DNA of 64,000 bases, from NCBI GenBank assembly GCA_942159475.1, contig OW804097.1, forward strand, positions 8,089,685 through 8,153,684, given 5' to 3'. Shown piece by piece: positions 1,349 through 60,881 of the stretch. The notes below the pieces were generated by a model. That model worked only from the letters and a program-made list of their open reading frames with translations, did no database searches and was not told where the DNA came from. The position numbers and the translations under genes are program-made. Within the stretch, counting starts at the first letter, position 1, and every line of letters begins with the position of its first letter. The DNA comes from Sthenelais limicola. Taxonomy: Eukaryota > Annelida > Polychaeta > Phyllodocida > Sigalionidae.

Positions 1349-1600
1349 CAACCAATGCTAGCAATTCTTGTTTAGGGACAACAAAACAGGAACTCACAAT
1401 GATACAATATTTGTATCATTAATGTCTGGGCCTGTAAATGAAATAATAAAAACAATACAGGAATTTATAAAGTATAGTTTTATTTCCATTTTCAACATTT
1501 CACAAAGATATCTTATCAAATATAGGAATTGGACCATTGTGTGTATACGCTCTATAGTCATCTGTAGCATCTCTTGGTCGAGTCTACACAGAGGAACATA

Positions 1601-1844
1601 TGGGTCAGATTTTCAGAAAATGTACAACTCAGAACTGGCAGCTCTACACATTTAGGAAATCCTCCTAAATTAGGCTGAAAAATGAAGAATACCAGGTATA
1701 TCTGAGTATATTTGGTATCACATTGATTTAAAGTATCAGTTCTGTTATGTTAAACTGCATTTTGAAACTAATTTTTGTCTTAAATGAGGGTTATTTGAGA
1801 GGATTGGCGAATTTGAATTGTACAATTTCTGAAAATCTGACCCA
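1601..1844. mobile_element. MITE-A copy, full length
   Basis: Terminal inverted repeats TGGGTCAGATTTTCAGAAAA and its complement bound about 244 bp with no coding capacity. The flanks read CATA before and TATA after, compatible with a TA target duplication as made by Tc1/mariner-type transposases. Subfamily A, with the interior words GGTATATCTGAGTATATTTGG and TTAAATGAGGGTTATTTGAG. Confidence 0.85.
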
Positions 1845-2207
1845 TATACAGACGTGCAGCCAGAGAAGGATTACTCATGTAACTGTTTATAATAAATAAA
1901 AGTATTTCTTAATTCAATTAAATTCAACGATAACTTACGGGTTAACATTATCTATATTTTTACCATGTACTGTCTTCGGAAATAAACAATATACATACAT
2001 ACATGTCCGATTGTCCAGTGAAAAATTTGACTTTTAATCAATTTAGCCATGAAATACCAGTTTTTTGCCGTGTTTACTTAGCTGGCTGCCATTTTTTAGA
2101 TTTAAATAAACATTGTCCGCCGGCCAAATGCGGGTAGAAAATTATGCTGGCGGGTAAAAACAGCTTAAAACCACCAAGTTAGCCGCCCTTCTGTACATTA
2201 ATATTAA

Positions 2208-52927: not shown

Positions 52928-53200
52928 TCACACTATGAGCTCATAGCAAGGTCAATCTGTAAACTCTTATTTAGCTCAGACTGATCTCACAGTGTGAGCT
53001 CACAGTGTACTCATACTATGAATTCACTGTGAGGTTATAAGTAAGAGCACACTGTGAGCTCACACTATGAGCTCACATAGGAAGGTCAATCTGTAACCTC
53101 TTATTTAGCTCAGAATGATCTCACAGTGTGAGCTCACGGTGTACTCATACTATGAATTCACTGTGAGGTTATAAGCAAGAGCACACTGTGAGCTATCACA
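52928..53200 (+). repeat. 134-bp subterminal tandem repeat, two units (left)
   Basis: AAGGTCAATCTGTAA begins at 52,948 and 53,082; both are followed by ATCTCACAGTGTGAGCTCAC, GTGTACTCATACTATGAATTC and GAGCACACTGTGAGCT. The units contain many palindromic GAGCTC words that could be transposase-binding sites. Confidence 0.85.
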
Positions 53201-53380: not shown

Positions 53381-53457
53381 TGCTGAGAAGAAAACACCCG
53401 CACAATACTACTAGGTACTTTACCTAGTAGTATTGTGAGGGTGTTTTCTTCTCAGCA
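53381..53457. mobile_element. Near-perfect 37-bp-arm hairpin
   Basis: Arms 53,381-53,417 and 53,421-53,457 (TGCTGAGAAGAAAACACCC at the outside) pair in 36 of 37 positions around a CTT loop. Probably a minimal palindromic MITE. Confidence 0.85.
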
Positions 53458-53775
53458 TTAAAGCAGGTACATTATCCAAATAAACTATTAAGTTCATTGC
53501 TTTTAATATTCCCAAGTTTATGATGTGTAATATCTATAAAGTATAAATGCCTCATATAGGTCGTATCAGCGTCGTCGAGGGGGATAGACTGTAGCTCCAA
53601 GCGCTCCACTAAAAGCTTCTATATTCTTGGATTTCCTGGATATATGGAACCCTAAACCAGATTATTCTTACTAACGTCGCGTTGGGAAGACGGTGAGCTA
53701 AATTATACAAAAAATCTTTAGGTTTTTCGTGGATTTATCGAACATTCTTACTGTATACACCCAATATCGCCCACA

Positions 53776-55788
53776 ATGAATGAGTACTTTGAAGGCCTGG
53801 TCGGCGGCGGCCAAGCACCGAGAGCTTTCAACCAGCCAATTAACCCGGGACGACCGGTACATAAGCCCCGATTCCTACTTGATTGCACCAAGCACTTTGC
53901 CCGTGGTGACCTACTCGAGCGAAACGACTATGTTCTGAACGATGAAAACCCCTCTAATCGTGACCTGAAAATGTCTTTGCAGATGGCACACTCTAACATC
54001 GCCGCATGCAAAAATAAGATTGATAATATGATTCAAAACGAGCATGACTCACGTAAAGAAATTCTATATCTCAGAAGCGAGGTAGATAAATTGTCCTTAC
54101 ATAATCATCTACTGGGTGAGAAATGCATCGATCTGGATGTTGACAGGCGTAAAACCAATCTTCTAGTTAGTGGGATTAAACAATACCGTAATGAAAATTT
54201 GGAAGAAATATGCTATGAGATCTTGCGTGTAATTGAGAACAACTTGTACTACGACGAGATCTCCCAAGCCAGGCGTATTGGGGCCAAATCTAGAGGTATT
54301 AAGCAGATCCTCATTAAATTTAAAAGCGTGGAATGTCGCGATTATTTTTTCATCAGAAGGAAACAATTGGGGAATGTTGAGAAGTTTAAATTCGTTTTCC
54401 TTAACCCAGATCTTCCTACAGAGGTCATTGAGCGCAAATCTAACCTCAGAGCTGTGCAAAAACATGCTAGCAAAGTTGGTGGGAAAGATGTCGGCTACAT
54501 TAAAAGAAATTCAGTCAAAATTGGTGGGATCACCTACAAACATGATGAGTTGGAAAACATCGAGCCCGGCTATCGTTTAAGTGACGCCAAAACGAAAAAA
54601 GTTAGGAACAATGTTTACTTCCAATCCCTGCATAGCCCACTAAGCAATTTCCACCCATCGAAAATGAACATCAGAGGAATTGACTTCGACAATGCAGAGC
54701 AAGCCTACCAGTTTGCCAGGGCAAACATTTTAGGGGAGGAGGACAGGGCCTGTAGGATTATGAGATGCATTTCTCCTATGGAGGCTAAGGCGATCGGTGG
54801 AGAATTCCCTTCGAATGATGAGTGGAACGGGATCAAAATCAATGTTATGAGAGCAATTCTCAATGAGAAATTTCTGCAGAATGAGCCCCTTTTGGATTTT
54901 TTAATTTCTACAGGTACTCTTAGCCTTATGGAAGCTACAAACGACATGTTCTGGGCGGCAGGTTGCCGCCTGGACTCTGATCTTATGCTAAACGGACATC
55001 ATAAGGGCGACAACGTACTGGGGGCGATCTTAGAAGAAATTCGTTACCACCACACCAACGACACCCCCCTATTGGAGAGATTTGATTTCCAACTAGAAGG
55101 CAGTGATGGGAAAGCACTTGACCCGTCCCGTAGTAGTTCACCACGACGTGATCAATTTCCCAGGCACCCGAGAGAGGAGCAATTGTTCTACAATTCAAAT
55201 ACTACTCCTGATATGGCTGGACCGCCTCGCATGACTGAACAAACACCTGCTATCAGAACTGGTGAGGAAGACATGGCTGTAGGAGCGGTAGCACAGACCA
55301 ATCAATTACCTGTACGGGAACAACAACCTGAATTACTTCCTCCTTTACAGGGTGAACAGGTGGTCGCTCCTGTCGATCAAGCTCAGGTAAGAATAGCTCG
55401 CATATCCAGGTTTGATACAGTACGGAGGGCAAAACAGCCAGTATTGAAATTGTACCAGGTGGCAGATAGATCTCGCTCCAATTCCTCCAAAAGGAAGAAC
55501 TCTGAAGATTCGGTCACGCCTAAGCCAGTAAGTAAAAAAATCCACCTGAGGCCCTCTCCCAGTTATGCAGATAAAATTAAAAAGAGCTGCGAGAAAGGCA
55601 AATCGTTAAAAGGGCTTGGGGATAGCGCACAAGTTGGAAACCCAAGAAGGCCATTCTCTCTCCCTTATCCCCCTACCACCACGTATTCCAGGTATAATAC
55701 CGGCAAGCTTGAAGATGATCCGTTGGGAACCATTGACCTTAATAACTTTGGGACTCTCAAGAAACAAGATCCAAAATCCCTCATTTAA
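53776..55788 (+). CDS. Retrotransposon ORF1: coiled coil, RRM-like/CTD and NADAR domain
   Basis: 670 residues. About 60-118 is a predicted coiled coil (trimerisation in related ORF1 proteins). About 125-260 has the RRM-like plus C-terminal-domain pattern of L1-type ORF1 nucleic-acid chaperones (NLLVSGI; SQARRIGAKSRG; ILIKFKS; VFLNPDLP; SVKIGGITY). About 279-425 is a NADAR (DUF1768/YbiA-like) domain: PLSNFHPSKMNIRG, NAEQAYQFARA with E308, DEWNGIKINVMRAIL with W350, TGTLSLMEATNDMFWAAGC with D390 and W393, and KGDNVLGAILEEIR. The ~250-residue tail is proline-rich and basic and looks disordered. NADAR enzymes cleave N-glycosidic bonds, including guanine-ADP-ribose; activity here is inferred from conserved motifs. 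Starts at the first ATG after the 5' UTR; ORF2 follows after 53 nt. Confidence 0.92.
   Translation: MNEYFEGLVGGGQAPRAFNQPINPGRPVHKPRFLLDCTKHFARGDLLERNDYVLNDENPSNRDLKMSLQMAHSNIAACKNKIDNMIQNEHDSRKEILYLRSEVDKLSLHNHLLGEKCIDLDVDRRKTNLLVSGIKQYRNENLEEICYEILRVIENNLYYDEISQARRIGAKSRGIKQILIKFKSVECRDYFFIRRKQLGNVEKFKFVFLNPDLPTEVIERKSNLRAVQKHASKVGGKDVGYIKRNSVKIGGITYKHDELENIEPGYRLSDAKTKKVRNNVYFQSLHSPLSNFHPSKMNIRGIDFDNAEQAYQFARANILGEEDRACRIMRCISPMEAKAIGGEFPSNDEWNGIKINVMRAILNEKFLQNEPLLDFLISTGTLSLMEATNDMFWAAGCRLDSDLMLNGHHKGDNVLGAILEEIRYHHTNDTPLLERFDFQLEGSDGKALDPSRSSSPRRDQFPRHPREEQLFYNSNTTPDMAGPPRMTEQTPAIRTGEEDMAVGAVAQTNQLPVREQQPELLPPLQGEQVVAPVDQAQVRIARISRFDTVRRAKQPVLKLYQVADRSRSNSSKRKNSEDSVTPKPVSKKIHLRPSPSYADKIKKSCEKGKSLKGLGDSAQVGNPRRPFSLPYPPTTTYSRYNTGKLEDDPLGTIDLNNFGTLKKQDPKSLI
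54610..55050 (+). other. NADAR domain coding segment within ORF1
   Basis: Residues about 279-425 of ORF1. The family's landmarks appear in the right order and spacing: the F-S..PLSNF start, an E in AEQAYQ, the W of EW...K...M, the EA(T)xDxFW block and G(D)N.LG..L. Length (~147 residues) equals that of stand-alone NADAR proteins, so the domain seems complete. Confidence 0.88.
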
Positions 55789-55841
55789 ATTTGAATTTCT
55801 CAATACTAAGCTATTATCCTTTTTGATTTACAGCAATAATC

Positions 55842-56471
55842 ATGGCTATGCGTCCGCTGACGATAGTCATCTCTGACTCTCGGGGATCCGACCTCATCTG
55901 TTTTATTGAATCACGCTCGGAGATATTATGTTTCCCCTACCCAGGAAGAGGGCTGATTAGTCTCGCTAATATAGCGAAAGACAAGATATTGGAGTTAAGA
56001 CCGGATTCAGTCATCATATTAGGCGGAATCTGTGATTTCTGTACTAAAAACAAGCAAACGAAACATATAGCCCTAGCTCATTGTAATGAAGGAGTGTTGG
56101 TACGTGAAATGGTTGACAAATATAGCCTGGTATTGGAGATACTGCAGGAGGAAAGGAAGAATTGTAATATCTGCATCGGTGGACTGATAGGAGCAGACCT
56201 TAATCGAGCAAATTACGAAGATGGTATTTCTTGTCTACAGATTATGGCCAACAATGCTATTATGACCATAAACGAAGACATTCATGCCTTAAATATCAAC
56301 AGGGGAATTGCCCATCCATTCTTTATTGGGAGGATACACACTACTAGGAAAGGGAGACCAAGGCACTATTTAAACAGATTACCAGACGGGATTCATCTCG
56401 ACATCAAGACAATAAAAATATGGGCTGAACAGATCGAACGCTTCCACCTTAAACCAACTCTGGAGAATTAA
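55842..56471 (+). CDS. Retrotransposon ORF2: SGNH/GDSL-type hydrolase
   Basis: 209 residues. Block I is ISDSRGSD (residues 10-17; S13 the likely nucleophile), a Gly-rich block II PGRGL at 34-38, block III GGICDF at 61-66 where the usual G-x-N-D has Cys in place of Asn, and block V DGIHLD with D182 and H185 as the remaining catalytic pair. SGNH/esterase domains are known in ORF1 of CR1 and L2-clade elements; here it is a separate ORF. No signal peptide. The substrate is unknown; membrane or lipid ester interaction during RNP trafficking has been suggested for the family. It begins 53 nt after ORF1 stops, in another frame, and could be translated by reinitiation. Confidence 0.85.
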   Translation: MAMRPLTIVISDSRGSDLICFIESRSEILCFPYPGRGLISLANIAKDKILELRPDSVIILGGICDFCTKNKQTKHIALAHCNEGVLVREMVDKYSLVLEILQEERKNCNICIGGLIGADLNRANYEDGISCLQIMANNAIMTINEDIHALNINRGIAHPFFIGRIHTTRKGRPRHYLNRLPDGIHLDIKTIKIWAEQIERFHLKPTLEN

Positions 56472-56486
56472 AATTGCTATACCTAT

Positions 56487-56522
56487 GTGGGGACTGTGCA
56501 GAACATCTGCCGCATCTCTCAC
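56487..56522 (+). repeat. Inter-ORF hairpin 1
   Basis: GCAG-AACAT-CTGC core; flanking UGU pairs with GCA, and GUGGGGA with UCUCUCAC (one bulge, two GU pairs). Confidence 0.7.
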
Positions 56523-56612
56523 CCGATACGAATATTCGCGTTTACTAAGTCGATGCGATCGCGTAATATCATTAATTAAATTATGGAGTCTATTTAATAA
56601 TGCTTTTGGATA

Positions 56613-56641
56613 GGATCTGTGCAGAACAACTGCCATAATCC
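56613..56641 (+). repeat. Inter-ORF hairpin 2
   Basis: GGAT-C-TGT-GCAG-AACAA-CTGC-C-ATA-ATCC. Lies in a ~52-bp block (TAATGCTTTTGGATAGGATC...) duplicated at hairpin 3. Confidence 0.8.
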
Positions 56642-56705
56642 AACCAAACTTGATATAAGATTAGTATAAGTATATGCATTTCTATATAAATAATGCTTCT
56701 GGATA

Positions 56706-56734
56706 GGATCTGTGCAGAACAACTGCCATAATCC
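56706..56734 (+). repeat. Inter-ORF hairpin 3
   Basis: Identical to hairpin 2 across the stem-loop, with the duplicated context TAATGCTTCTGGATAGGATC. Offset 93 nt. Confidence 0.8.
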
Positions 56735-56892
56735 AACCTGAGCGTTATGGGTCTATCTTCCTCTCTCTCTCTTTTCTTTTTCCCCTCATGCCTTTCTCTC
56801 CTCTTGCACTTGCATTGTTTGTCGGATGACTATTATTACATACCATCGTACTTTAAGTAGAGGCAATGCGGTATAGAATTCAATGCGATTAC

Positions 56893-56921
56893 GGATCTGT
56901 GCAGAATATCTGCCATAATCC
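56893..56921 (+). repeat. Inter-ORF hairpin 4
   Basis: Same stems as hairpins 2 and 3 but loop AATAT; the surrounding sequence is unrelated. Confidence 0.8.
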
Positions 56922-57010
56922 CACATCCTATTTAGTACATTCATTGTGGAAATTATGCCTCCTTAACTGGTATACTATAGATTTTGATTTATTCATAATT
57001 GAAATTAAGT

Positions 57011-57043
57011 CCTTATCTGTGCAGAACACCTGCCATAATGAGG
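57011..57043 (+). repeat. Inter-ORF hairpin 5
   Basis: Core GCAG-AACAC-CTGC with UGU/AUA; the basal stem is CCTTAT paired to ATGAGG instead of GGAT/ATCC, so both sides changed together. Confidence 0.78.
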
Positions 57044-57179
57044 CGCTTGATTAACAATTTTGGCGATATATTGCTAGTATGAATTTCCTGTTACTAACCT
57101 ATTGTGGATAACCCATTGTGGAATGCATATGACCTCCTCTCTCCCTCAAGCATTATCCCACCCTAAGCAGCACTGAGTA

Positions 57180-60029
57180 ATGAATGTCCCGGCCCTGAAT
57201 AGTTGGAAGGAGCTGAACAAGATAAAAGGACTTAAAATATTGCATTTAAATACTAGATCCCTACTTCCAAAAATTGATAATATAAGGCAAGATATTCTAA
57301 CGGAAGAACCAGAAATCTTGGGAATTTCAGAAACATGGCTCAAAAGTTCTATTCCTTCAGACCTCATAGAAGCATACAATTATACCTTAATAAGACAAGA
57401 CAGACTAACCGCAACGTCTGGTGGCGGGCTCTGTCTTTATGTCAGGAAAGACTATAATGTAAGTCAGTTAAGCTCAGCTGTACTGATGAATAATGACAAT
57501 ATTGAGGCGCAGGCAATTAGTGTATATAAAGAGAATATAAGGACCAAACTTGTCATCAACCTGTATAGAAAACCAAGTGGAAACTTAGATAGCTTTATTA
57601 ACTCACTAGGTGACCTTATCGCTAGCGCAAAGGAAGAAATTAAGACTAAAAATTATGATATCATTATTTGCGGCGACTTCAATATTGACATATCAAACAA
57701 TACTGACTGCAAAACAAAGCTGCTAAAAAAGTTTAGTAAAGAACAAGATTTAAACATACTTATGAATGGAATTACTAGATTCGGGCTACAAAAAAACACT
57801 ATAATCGATCTTTTCTTGGTGCAAATCAAAAAAGAAGTTTCCTGTGGCACCATTAATTACAACATCTCTGACCATCAAGGTATCTACCTAAATATCAAAA
57901 GTCAGAAAGTAAGACATGAGAAAAAAGAGTTCTTTGGTAGAGACTATAGGAACTACTCCAGGGATATTCTACATATTGAATTGAATAACGAACAATGGAC
58001 TGAATATTATGATGCTAATAATGTGGATGAGCAATGGGATATTCTATTTAACAAATTAATCAGAATTAGTGACAAAATAGCGCCCCTAAAGAGATTTAAT
58101 CTACGTAAAGATAGGCCAGAATGGTATACAGATGAGCTAGTTGGACTAGGAGTTGCCAGAGACAAAGCATTCAAGAAACTCCACAGAAACAAAACTATTG
58201 AGAATAGGGATTTAGCTAGGGTAGCCAGAAACAATTTTAATGACCTACTAAAAAGAAGCAAACGAGAGTACTTTGTCAGACTTTTAGAAGAGAACAAACA
58301 TGACAGCAAGAAATTCTGGCGTATCATAACCGAAATACAAAACAAGCAGAACAATACTATCACACATTTAAAGGATGAGGATGGAACTACCCTGACTGGG
58401 GCAGACTTGGCTGAACACGTCAACAAATATTTCTGTGACATTGGGCTAAATATACAAAAATCCATTCCAAACAAACCCCCTATAATAGACAGAGAAATAG
58501 TTAGAGTCCCTATGGAATTCTCCATGCCTACCGCTAACGTGCTGGCTGAAAGAATTTCCCAGATTAACATAAGAAAATCCTCCGGTTGTGAAAAAATCAG
58601 TGCAAAAATATATAAGGATGCAGCCTCGGATCTGATCCCACAACTGCTCACACTTTTCTATAAGTCGATCGAGACTGGTATTTTTCCAACAAAGTGGAAG
58701 ATGAGTATAGTCAAAGTAATACCGAAGATAAAACACCCGAGAACGGCAAATGATACAAGGCCAATAAGCCTGATGCACATGTTTGGAAAAATGCTTGAAA
58801 AAATAGTAGTGGATAATTTATACCAATATCTCGAAAACAATAGTCTATTGACGCAAGACCAATATGGCTTTAGAGCAGGAATGTCTACTAGTGATGCCCT
58901 ATTTAAGCTAATTTATGATATCGATAGAACAATTAACTCTAATAATTATTTAACCGCCACCTTTATAGACTTCAGTAAAGCCTTTAACAGTGTTCAACAT
59001 GGTATTCTATTGGAAAAACTGAACAATATGGGCGTCACTGATAAATATAGTTCATGGATCAGCTCTTACCTTGGTATGCGGTCACAATATGTAAAAATAG
59101 ATAACTTTAAGTCAAGACCCTGCCCTGTACCATGTGGTGTCCCCCAGGGATCTGTCTTAGGCCCACTATTATACTTAACATATGCAAATGATTTTAAAAA
59201 CCTCCAAATTAATAGTCACATTATCCAATATGCTGACGACACCATTTTGTACCAGTCTGGACCCAACATGAACCAACTTGCTATTAATATGGGGAACGAC
59301 CTGGTTAAGTTCAAGGACTGGTCTATCCGCAATAAGATACTCATGAATATGAATAAAACAAAATGTATGATATTCAGTAAAAAGAAAATTCCTAACCCCC
59401 CTCCAATACAAATCGAAGGTGTAGACATTGAATATGTTGGCAGCTATGACTACCTAGGTATTACTCTAGACAGTAGGATGACCATGAATTTACAGTATGA
59501 CAAAATGATCCGAAACTTAAATAATAGAATCTATCAGCTAGGCATTATGAGGCAATACTTGACCACAAGTGCAGCAATCTGCCTTGTGAAATCCCTAATC
59601 TTATCCATCCTCGATTACTCTTTGCTCTTTTTAACTCCAATTGGTATTGGCAAAACTAATAAAATCCAACGTCTACAGAACAAGGCTCTGAGAATAGCCC
59701 TAAAATGCCCTATTGAAACCCCGACTATTGAATTACATACAACCGGTAAAGTAATGAACATTAACAATAGAAAAAAATTTTTGCAAATAAATCTAGCGAA
59801 GAAGCTCACACAATGTGAGAGATTTATCAACCAGCCAGCTCGCCATACTAGACGTGGGGATGCTATAACCCTGGCCCAATTCCAGCCTAAGAAAGAAAAA
59901 AACAGACAATCCATTAGCTACCAATTATGCCAAACCTGGAATGACACGGCCCCGAATATCAGGAATATGGAACCCCTTGCAATTAAGACGTTTCTGAAAA
60001 AAGAATACATCCCGAGAGAGCCCGATTAG
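57180..60029 (+). CDS. Retrotransposon ORF3: APE-type endonuclease and reverse transcriptase
   Basis: 949 residues. The N-terminal ~240 residues are an APE/EEP endonuclease: HLNTRSL (N24), SETWL (E51), GDFNID at 165-170 and SDHQ at 230-233. The RT domain follows, with FIDFSKAFNSVQHG, GVPQGSVLGPLL and the catalytic YADD at 684-687, then a thumb and a C-terminal region ending WNDTAPNIRN...FLKKEY. No RNase H domain and no gag-like zinc knuckles. The enzyme nicks target DNA and primes reverse transcription from the nick. Start is ATG 57,180; an in-frame TGA two codons upstream excludes a longer N-terminus. All motifs look intact. The clade needs a tree: L2/CR1/Crack/Daphne are candidates. Confidence 0.95.
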   Translation: MNVPALNSWKELNKIKGLKILHLNTRSLLPKIDNIRQDILTEEPEILGISETWLKSSIPSDLIEAYNYTLIRQDRLTATSGGGLCLYVRKDYNVSQLSSAVLMNNDNIEAQAISVYKENIRTKLVINLYRKPSGNLDSFINSLGDLIASAKEEIKTKNYDIIICGDFNIDISNNTDCKTKLLKKFSKEQDLNILMNGITRFGLQKNTIIDLFLVQIKKEVSCGTINYNISDHQGIYLNIKSQKVRHEKKEFFGRDYRNYSRDILHIELNNEQWTEYYDANNVDEQWDILFNKLIRISDKIAPLKRFNLRKDRPEWYTDELVGLGVARDKAFKKLHRNKTIENRDLARVARNNFNDLLKRSKREYFVRLLEENKHDSKKFWRIITEIQNKQNNTITHLKDEDGTTLTGADLAEHVNKYFCDIGLNIQKSIPNKPPIIDREIVRVPMEFSMPTANVLAERISQINIRKSSGCEKISAKIYKDAASDLIPQLLTLFYKSIETGIFPTKWKMSIVKVIPKIKHPRTANDTRPISLMHMFGKMLEKIVVDNLYQYLENNSLLTQDQYGFRAGMSTSDALFKLIYDIDRTINSNNYLTATFIDFSKAFNSVQHGILLEKLNNMGVTDKYSSWISSYLGMRSQYVKIDNFKSRPCPVPCGVPQGSVLGPLLYLTYANDFKNLQINSHIIQYADDTILYQSGPNMNQLAINMGNDLVKFKDWSIRNKILMNMNKTKCMIFSKKKIPNPPPIQIEGVDIEYVGSYDYLGITLDSRMTMNLQYDKMIRNLNNRIYQLGIMRQYLTTSAAICLVKSLILSILDYSLLFLTPIGIGKTNKIQRLQNKALRIALKCPIETPTIELHTTGKVMNINNRKKFLQINLAKKLTQCERFINQPARHTRRGDAITLAQFQPKKEKNRQSISYQLCQTWNDTAPNIRNMEPLAIKTFLKKEYIPREPD

Positions 60030-60320
60030 TAAGCCAGTAAGCCATTAACCGCTCTTACTCCCATAAAACACGGAACCCACGATTCCTACCCAAATATGCC
60101 CCTTTCTAATATGACATTCTATCCATAGCTCACCTGGTCTTCCCCCTCGACCGACCACACTAATGTAATTACTAACAACGAACTGCTAATTTTCTATATA
60201 TCTTTGGATTTTGAATATGGTATCATTGTAACTGTTAAATAGGCAGGCAGTGGGAACATCGTCACTGCGACGACGCTGATGTCTATCCTGCAATAAATTC
60301 TGTTCCAAAAAAAAAAAATA
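60030..60320 (+). terminator. Retrotransposon 3' UTR, AATAAA and poly-A tail
   Basis: About 280 nt ending in CTGCAATAAATTCTGTTCC and twelve A. It contains CGACGACGCTGAT at 60,268-60,280, the exact complement of ATCAGCGTCGTCG in the 5' UTR (53,565-53,577). A local CATCGTC...GACGA...GATG hairpin is also possible. Confidence 0.8.
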
Positions 60321-60441
60321 TAAGTATGATTAGTGAGACTTTTGTTCTATTAGAAAGTGTAAATGTAATGCAGTAACCTGTGACACCACCTAGTGAAAGC
60401 CAAGTTCTACGGTAGTGCCACCTGGTGAGAACAAAAGGCAT

Positions 60442-60881
60442 AAACCATTCATGTGAGATCACATATGTAAGATCACAATCATCTCACCCAGACCTCATAG
60501 TTCTGATCTCACATCTATGAGAAGTTTCTGAGCTCACTGAGATATCACAGCTGTTAGCTAAATGTGAGCTAGAACTTGTGAGCTCACACTGAGATCACAC
60601 TGAAACCATTCATGTGAGATCGCATATGCAAGATCACAAACATCTCACCTAGACCTCATAGTTCTGATCTCACATCTATGAGAAGTTTCTGAGCTCACTG
60701 AGATATCACAGCTGTTAGCTAAATGTGAGCTAGAACTTGTGAACTCACACTGAGATCACACTGAAACCATTCATGTGAGATCACATATACAAGATCACAA
60801 AAAGCTCACCCAGACCTCAACGTTCTGATATCACATGTGTGAGACGTTTTTGAGCTCATAGCGAGATCTACATGAGCTCAC
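60442..60881 (+). repeat. 161-bp subterminal tandem repeat, ~2.7 units (right)
   Basis: AAACCATTCATGTGAGATC starts at 60,442, 60,603 and 60,764. Each unit has GATCTCACATCTATGAGAAG and GAGATATCACAGCTGTTAGC. It is the right subterminal array of the 52,871-60,895 element. Confidence 0.88.

Follow-up and report, generated by a model that had tools for sequence, protein, structure and literature searches.

The 64,000-nucleotide stretch of the Sthenelais limicola genome analysed here (contig OW804097.1, positions 8,089,685 to 8,153,684; hereafter the window) contains a copy of a long interspersed nuclear element (LINE) with three open reading frames (ORFs), which we call ORF1, ORFX and ORF2 (Table 1). 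The element has the hallmarks of a non-LTR (long terminal repeat) retrotransposon: ORF2 encodes an endonuclease and a reverse transcriptase (RT), and dispersed copies share their ends and a 3' A tail. Its 5' end is common to other copies and is accurate within a few bases, as judged by blastn and by eye; a clear target-site duplication was not seen in the flanks, which were inspected by eye only, with no systematic test. Our main finding is that ORF1, by its predicted fold an L1-like protein, carries a complete NADAR domain, and that this domain is under purifying selection.

The initial annotation, made from the sequence alone, had placed a full NADAR domain in ORF1 after a coiled coil and an L1-type RNA recognition motif (RRM) and C-terminal domain (CTD); profile searches and one AlphaFold model bear this out. 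Pfam NADAR (PF08719) matches residues 285-423 of ORF1 with an E-value of 1.9e-25 and 90.5 bits (cut-off 35.1), and NCBIfam TIGR02464, a model of riboflavin-intermediate N-glycosidases, reaches 89.2 bits (cut-off 73.7). When PDB sequences were searched with ORF1 at E <= 1, only two matches were returned, YbiA (2b3w, 1.6e-7) and the NADAR 8bau (2.2e-5), and the same two were the sole matches, again at E <= 1, to a profile of 15 copies. The AlphaFold model of ORF1 residues 84-440, built from 15 copies (mean predicted local distance difference test, pLDDT, 81.1; predicted template modelling score, pTM, 0.65), shows one long helix, an RRM-like fold, the CTD and the NADAR domain in that order. Comparison of this predicted model with the PDB by Foldseek at E <= 0.001 gave 12 matches, namely 2 NADARs (8bau, 4.1e-8; 2b3w, 3.6e-7) and 10 chains of human LINE-1 ORF1p, with moderate TM-scores of 0.41-0.71 by target length. 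The coiled coil and the RRM/CTD gave no Pfam match and are supported by the predicted fold, which confirms a type II (L1-like) ORF1 with coiled coil, RRM and CTD. Judged by profiles and model together, the domain behind them is a complete NADAR of the YbiA type. The tail of ORF1 that follows it had no match in the Pfam search. Two queries of a large protein set, one being ORF1 residues 90-430 and the other the NADAR by itself, returned no match at E <= 0.001, the probable cause being exact-word seeding and length limits; the domain could be of bacterial, animal-gene or RNA-virus origin. A pattern scan of IMG/VR found no relative.

Table 1. Features of the LINE copy, in positions of the window.
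Feature	Position	Strand	Basis
Whole LINE copy	53568..60318	+	Conserved 5' start AGCGTCGTCGAGGGGG to 12-base A run 60307-60318; blastn and shared ends by eye
5' untranslated region (5'UTR) segments GTCGAGGGGGA (53574-53584) and GGGAAGACGGTGAGCTA (53684-53700), complementary to 3'UTR	53574..53700	+	
ORF1, 670 aa	ATG 53776, stop 55786-55788	+	ORF reading
Long helix, probable coiled coil	54040..54150	+	AlphaFold model (model residues 6-42)
RRM, LINE-1 ORF1p type (predicted)	54157..54408	+	AlphaFold model; Foldseek to 2yko/2ykp/2ykq and 2ldy
CTD, LINE-1 ORF1p type (predicted)	54418..54558	+	AlphaFold model and Foldseek
NADAR domain (Pfam match 54628-55044)	54592..55059	+	Pfam, NCBIfam, PDB sequence search, tblastn, model, Foldseek
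ORF1 tail, less conserved, Ser/Pro/Arg-rich	55063..55785	+	Alignment and nonsynonymous divergence (dN)
ORFX, 209 aa, predicted SGNH/GDSL-hydrolase fold	55842..56471	+	AlphaFold model, Foldseek, residue alignment
A 25-base hairpin motif, present five times (ORFX-ORF2 spacer)	56492..57039 (at 56492, 56615, 56708, 56895, 57015)	+	
ORF2, endonuclease and reverse transcriptase	57180..60029	+	Pfam PF14529, PF03372, PF00078
3'UTR partner of the 5'UTR segments	60126..60151	+	

The domain is not a private insertion in this single copy, a possibility that the initial annotation had raised. In the host genome (1.13 Gb, 161 contigs), the best 150 of 4992 first-look candidates found with the window NADAR and the best 150 of 5561 found with the Pfam model gave at least 271 distinct NADAR places. 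The family counts are lower bounds, although a few of these places are outside this LINE. Several sets of these places have identical scores and frame lengths, which suggests recent copying. ORFX accompanies the domain: among the best 150 ORFX places, 94 are preceded at 0-3 kb, in the same orientation, by one of the listed NADARs (0.05 expected); the remaining 56 may be truncated copies, or their NADARs may rank below those listed. In a sample of the window copy and 23 loci (L009-L031), chosen mostly for long frames, ORF1 is open over at least 600 residues in 20 of the 24 copies, ORFX over at least 200 in 21, and ORF2 over at least 900 in 13, although in one of these 13 (L012) the frame is part of another element. 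A divergent family, L047, has a NADAR 35.6% identical to that of the window (Pfam 101.7 bits) and, by reading, the same gene order: ORF1 with NADAR, an ORF with SGNH-like motifs, and endonuclease-RT in two frames. In a tree that held neither animal-gene nor RNA-virus NADARs and in which long branches were flagged, one branch (92/86, 91% of 200 bootstraps) had all 14 transposable-element rows on the same side, which only suggests a single gain of NADAR within this set.

At least one NADAR place sits in another kind of element. Three of the 271 places are frames of just 162 residues, and the one examined, L048, is not this LINE: its stand-alone NADAR (1449-1934, minus strand, 162 residues, Pfam 109.2 bits) keeps the usual Lys, a position taken up below, and the ORF beside it, in which Pfam found nothing, may resemble a Polinton DNA polymerase. 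A further NADAR match, at C4:124994033-124994449 on the minus strand, lies in an open frame of 1449 residues, about twice the usual length of ORF1.

The ratio of nonsynonymous to synonymous divergence (omega) shows that the NADAR domain of the LINE is under purifying selection. With a Nei-Gojobori script, omega could be computed for four diverged pairs, the others giving no synonymous divergence (dS), and was 0.03 (window/L019), 0.05 (window/L018), 0.13 (L021/L023) and 0.02 (L020/L022) for NADAR; RT gave 0.06-0.08 in four pairs. Among 11 copies, mean identity is highest in NADAR (0.675), followed by ORFX (0.633), RT (0.597) and RRM-CTD (0.57). The pairwise identities of the four regions correlate with r of 0.95-0.99, those of NADAR with the other three regions at r of 0.95-0.98, so that the four have travelled together, NADAR being kept and not swapped. 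Retroelements commonly capture domains, and this one might have been captured without any role. The hundreds of listed places, the L047 family with the same gene order and the omega of 0.02-0.13 in diverged pairs already contradict such a roleless capture, which we regard as very improbable.

The residues of the active site are also conserved. In 26 NADAR copies from 25 loci (28 tblastn segments, two copies each being split in two), E308, R315, K338, W350, K354, E386 and W393 are kept throughout and D390 in 25, with N in L014; None of the three outcomes that the initial annotation named as refuting it was seen: the NADAR profile match is strong, E308, D390 and W393 have not been lost from the other copies, and the segment is no private insertion. 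Chance similarity, a private insertion and a pseudogene remnant were all rejected as explanations of the segment, on the genome-wide places, omega and residue conservation. The critical residues of YbiA include a Glu, an Asp and a Trp (PMC9303266), onto which the LINE residues were mapped by matching motif spacing, and a Glu on the last strand is the mark of the YbiA family (PMC11125620); the first catalytic Glu, the Asp, the Trp and the last-strand Glu are all present in the LINE domain. The catalytic Asp of DarT1-linked NADARs, two positions before the last-strand Glu, is absent from all 13 aligned transposable-element rows, Glu386 being present, and no ADP-ribosyltransferase gene that could be an antitoxin partner occurs among the three ORFs. 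YbiA, the DarT1-linked NADARs and the LINE domain have in common the fold, the Glu, Asp and Trp and the YbiA-type Glu; the LINE domain differs in an invariant Arg for Lys, in lacking a DarT partner and in its fusion to an RNA-binding module. Of the initial interpretation, what stands is a complete, conserved and probably catalytic NADAR in an L1-type ORF1. The LINE enzyme is probably an active YbiA-type NADAR with an altered phosphate-contact set, and perhaps with a substrate of its own.

The host element looks to be of CR1/Jockey type, an assignment made from motifs and bit scores. All eight homologues inspected share with the window the RT motifs GVPQGS[VI][LI]G and [FY]ADDT, which in the window read GVPQGSVLG and YADDT. 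Three of the eight come from named animals, namely P0076 (Hydractinia), P0088 (Mycteria) and P0109 (Branchiostoma), and these score 208-215 bits against the RT region. The motifs point away from the Tx1/L1 clade: L1 ORF2p has GTRQGCPLS and FADDM, and it scores 73 bits, a value for the whole ORF2 that is not strictly like for like with the 208-215 bits of the RT region. LINEs of birds are CR1 elements, and Tx1 is a clade of the L1 group.

A NADAR in a LINE ORF1 is known in outline and is not wholly new, so that the question of novelty left open by the initial annotation is answered in part. In the Pacific oyster (Crassostrea gigas), the ORF1 of "several families of Tx1 LINEs" appear to have a NADAR (PMC12477816). 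The two cases are alike in a YbiA-type NADAR within a LINE ORF1 and differ in the Tx1 label there and the CR1/Jockey-type RT here; the comparison is by description, and the same family or common descent is possible. ORFX, the residues and selection are not covered in the part of that account available to us. The same source describes one Gypsy lineage of Ectocarpus, likewise a retroelement with a YbiA-family NADAR but in Pol, for which horizontal acquisition was proposed as possible, almost all blastp matches being bacterial (PMC12477816). Type II ORF1 is known from the L1, CR1, L2 and R1 clades (PMC4120745), in a text from which the word NADAR is absent; L1 ORF1p has the same module of coiled coil, RRM and CTD, to which the window ORF1 adds NADAR and a long tail. 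Other RNA-based parasites also build a NADAR into a replication protein: one occurs in the polyproteins of nidoviruses, hepe-like viruses and annelid and bivalve picornaviruses (PMC9503650), a likeness by description to what is here a retrotransposon. A non-exhaustive literature search, by title and abstract and outside repeat databases, found no further work joining NADAR with LINEs. As far as that search goes, the new points are the apparent CR1/Jockey type of the element, the presence of ORFX next to ORF1, the Arg found in every copy, the measurements of selection and the RNA features described below.

Computation shows how the domains are ordered and predicted to fold, that residues are conserved and selection is purifying, that all parts share one history and that many copies are open. 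From this we propose a possible function. The reading that we prefer, while giving it somewhat less than an even chance, is that a CR1/Jockey-type LINE has joined an L1-like RNA-packaging module to a probably active YbiA-type NADAR N-glycosidase, which acts in cis on adducts of the element itself. Packaging in cis by ORF1p is established for L1. ORF1p would coat the element's own RNA, and because of this the NADAR would work in cis, hydrolysing an N-glycosidic adduct on element RNA, cDNA or ribonucleoprotein, most likely ADP-ribose on guanine; the copied RNA or cDNA would then survive nucleic-acid ADP-ribosylation by the host, or damage. This model of a cis-acting eraser draws on that packaging and on known NADAR chemistry: NADARs of E. 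coli hosts and phages and myxobacterial YbiA act on guanosine-linked ADP-ribose (PMC11125620), and the biochemistry favours guanine-linked ADP-ribose over the phosphorylated ends that PARP-type enzymes modify in vitro (PMC11543638, PMC11125620). The physiological roles of NADARs across eukaryotes, animals included, are stated to be unclear (PMC11125620). Here a strongly selected NADAR is joined to an RNA-packaging module of a well-understood kind, in hundreds of places, so that the question of what it erases can be put under well-defined circumstances, and its position in an RNA-coating protein may help the element to repair itself or to escape host defences.

Several points weigh against this reading. 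The dS of the diverged NADAR pairs was 0.2-2.8, with some values near saturation. The four youngest pairs, in which the window copy is compared with L011-L014, gave an omega of 0.25-0.76 for NADAR on very few changes and a lower one for RRM-CTD (0-0.21); the higher NADAR values would fit copies decaying after insertion. We further aligned 13 transposable-element rows with NADARs from phages (8) and from bacteria (7, of which five are from Vibrio and two, near-identical, from Bacteroidaceae, so that not all are independent). At the position that corresponds to K95 of E. coli C7, seven residues beyond the Glu, Lys stands in 15 of 15 comparators and Arg in 13 of 13 transposable-element rows, as in 26 of 26 LINE copies, and the phosphate-contact Arg of the 'LGR' motif, present in 13 of the 15, is G, S or T in the transposable-element rows and E in L047; substrate or rate may therefore differ. 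This Lys is essential for efficient hydrolysis, though largely rather than wholly conserved, and a K95R enzyme keeps guanine-ADP-ribose hydrolysis in vitro (PMC11543638), so that membership of the NADARs is still allowed with Arg at this place. The K95R E. coli enzyme, on the other hand, failed to rescue cells from DarT1 (PMC11543638), and hydrolysis by itself is insufficient for NADAR antitoxin function (PMC11125620). Sequence cannot separate removal of ADP-ribose from element RNA or cDNA, or action against a PARP-like defence, both suggested by the initial annotation, from an RNA-processing or a metabolic role. The Arg at the aligned active-site Lys and ORFX both go beyond the initial annotation.

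These same substitutions would suit a fold kept as a non-catalytic module that binds a ligand, RNA or protein: the Lys is invariantly Arg, the R79-type phosphate contact is lost, and altered active sites do occur in this element, the Asn of the GxND of block III in ORFX being Cys in 15 of 15 copies. The two candidate catalytic Glu residues and the Trp are nevertheless present in every copy and the Asp in almost every one, and the K95R enzyme works in vitro (PMC11543638), so that we think a role in binding only quite unlikely. The altered phosphate contacts also bear on a third idea, namely that the domain clears soluble ADP-ribose derivatives, signalling nucleotides or riboflavin intermediates instead of nucleic-acid adducts. 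TIGR02464, which ORF1 matches above the cut-off, is named for exactly such a riboflavin-intermediate N-glycosidase; the phosphate-contact positions are, however, unlike those of most bacterial and phage NADARs, and a metabolite cleaner has no need of a tether to an RNA-coating protein. We consider this unlikely.

A role on RNA ends, either in processing NAD caps or RNA repair products or as an adaptor in nuclear RNA metabolism, is another possibility, albeit a less than probable one. The predicted adjacency of NADAR and RRM in ORF1 would suit it, NADARs are associated with RNA-repair systems (PMC9503650), and processing of RNA intermediates was proposed by the authors of the Ectocarpus study (PMC12477816). 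A possible model for an adaptor is SNA-3 of nematodes: this protein with three NADARs makes contact with the cap-binding CBC-ARS2 complex and is needed for SL1 trans-splicing, and mutations of its NADAR residues impair trans-splicing; an enzymatic activity of SNA-3 is not reported in the accessible text (PMC9303266).

Returning to the cis-acting eraser, a more specific version would make ORF1p a counter-defence of the transposon, erasing guanine ADP-ribose that a host enzyme of CARP-1/pierisin type sets on element RNA or cDNA. By analogy, the NADARs of animal RNA viruses tend to sit in the replication polyprotein, and host ADP-ribosylation was proposed as their target (PMC9503650). The guanine-N2 ADP-ribosyltransferases of CARP-1 type from shellfish act on DNA and were proposed to work against DNA viruses and/or in NAD control (PMC8053099), and NADARs have been drawn as the erasers of these marks, a role that was assumed and not demonstrated (PMC11543638). 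We hold this version to be doubtful. It would imply a conflict over base ADP-ribosylation, fought by an element that may also bring an SGNH-fold protein and an RNA with 5'-3' pairing. Should nucleic-acid ADP-ribose indeed be the substrate, animals would possess a defence against transposons that works by modifying bases, and one element family would have come to undo it.

ORFX is predicted to have the fold of an SGNH hydrolase. The AlphaFold model, built from 15 of 22 aligned copies (pLDDT 79.7, pTM 0.81), matched 87 PDB chains in Foldseek at E <= 0.001, with SGNH/GDSL hydrolases among them such as 3p94, 4iyj, the PAF-AH structures 3dt6 and 1bwp, and TesA 1ivn. Of the best 50 of these 87 chains, 43 bear names such as esterase, lipase or hydrolase, and the other 7, which include the top match, are designed scaffolds; the esterase structure of the LINE ZfL2-1 is not named among these 50. 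All 15 aligned copies have Ser13, Asp182 and His185. By sequence profile, a GDSL lipase was reached at no better than E 0.75, and the Pfam search found nothing in ORFX. ZfL2-1 also has an SGNH-fold LINE protein (PMC3905857); that of the window differs in being a separate ORF beside an RRM-containing ORF1 and in the change of Asn to Cys. In the accessible part of the same source, none of the esterase-containing ORF1ps of RepBase has an RRM, and the esterase is called the sole enzymatic function among ORF1ps (PMC3905857). By its predicted folds, the present element joins an RRM-type ORF1 with an enzyme domain of its own and a separate SGNH-fold ORF, a pairing of RRM and SGNH fold not found among those RepBase proteins.

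The RNA of the element has two further features. In the spacer between ORFX and ORF2, one hairpin is repeated 4-5 times as an array, and each of three subfamilies has a hairpin of its own: that of the window occurs five times, L026/L027 have CTTACAATAAG and L030 has GATGATAATCATC. Of the 12 copies tested, six (the window copy, L009, L023, L026, L027 and L030, the first two being near-identical) reach counts met by 0 of 200 shuffles, and in L021 the count was reached by 3 of 200; in the exact-core test, arrays in L018, L019, L020, L022 and L031 were not above shuffles. The arrays could be co-evolving protein-binding or translation signals. An Rfam scan of 53400-60500 gave no match. In addition, the 5'UTR before ORF1 is complementary to the start of the 3'UTR, with a subfamily-specific sequence, and complementarity lies at the same places in L026, L027, L030 and L031. 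Pairs of the same subfamily scored 30.5-45.5 (mean 37.2, n=55, 49 of them within the window's near-relative group) and cross-subfamily pairs 15.5-33 (mean 24.2, n=66), ranges that touch, and at most 2 of 100 shuffles reached the observed score in the six copies tested. This stricter scoring, which largely told own from foreign pairs, was chosen after the segments had been seen and so was not blind, and two earlier, looser scorings (duplex energy; G-U pairs and gaps) failed to separate them; the complementarity is suggestive. By eye the segments are nested in order (53574-53700 with 60126-60151), and such pairing would bring the two ends of the RNA together in a panhandle that encloses all ORFs. 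Near the A tail there is another match, AGCGTCGTCG with CGACGACGCT.

Just upstream of the LINE, at 53381-53457, is a near-perfect palindrome of 77 bases, 93.5% identical to its own reverse complement. Beside the insertion, positions 53000-53200 contain repeated blocks such as 'tcacagtgt...cactgtgag', which look satellite-like by eye.

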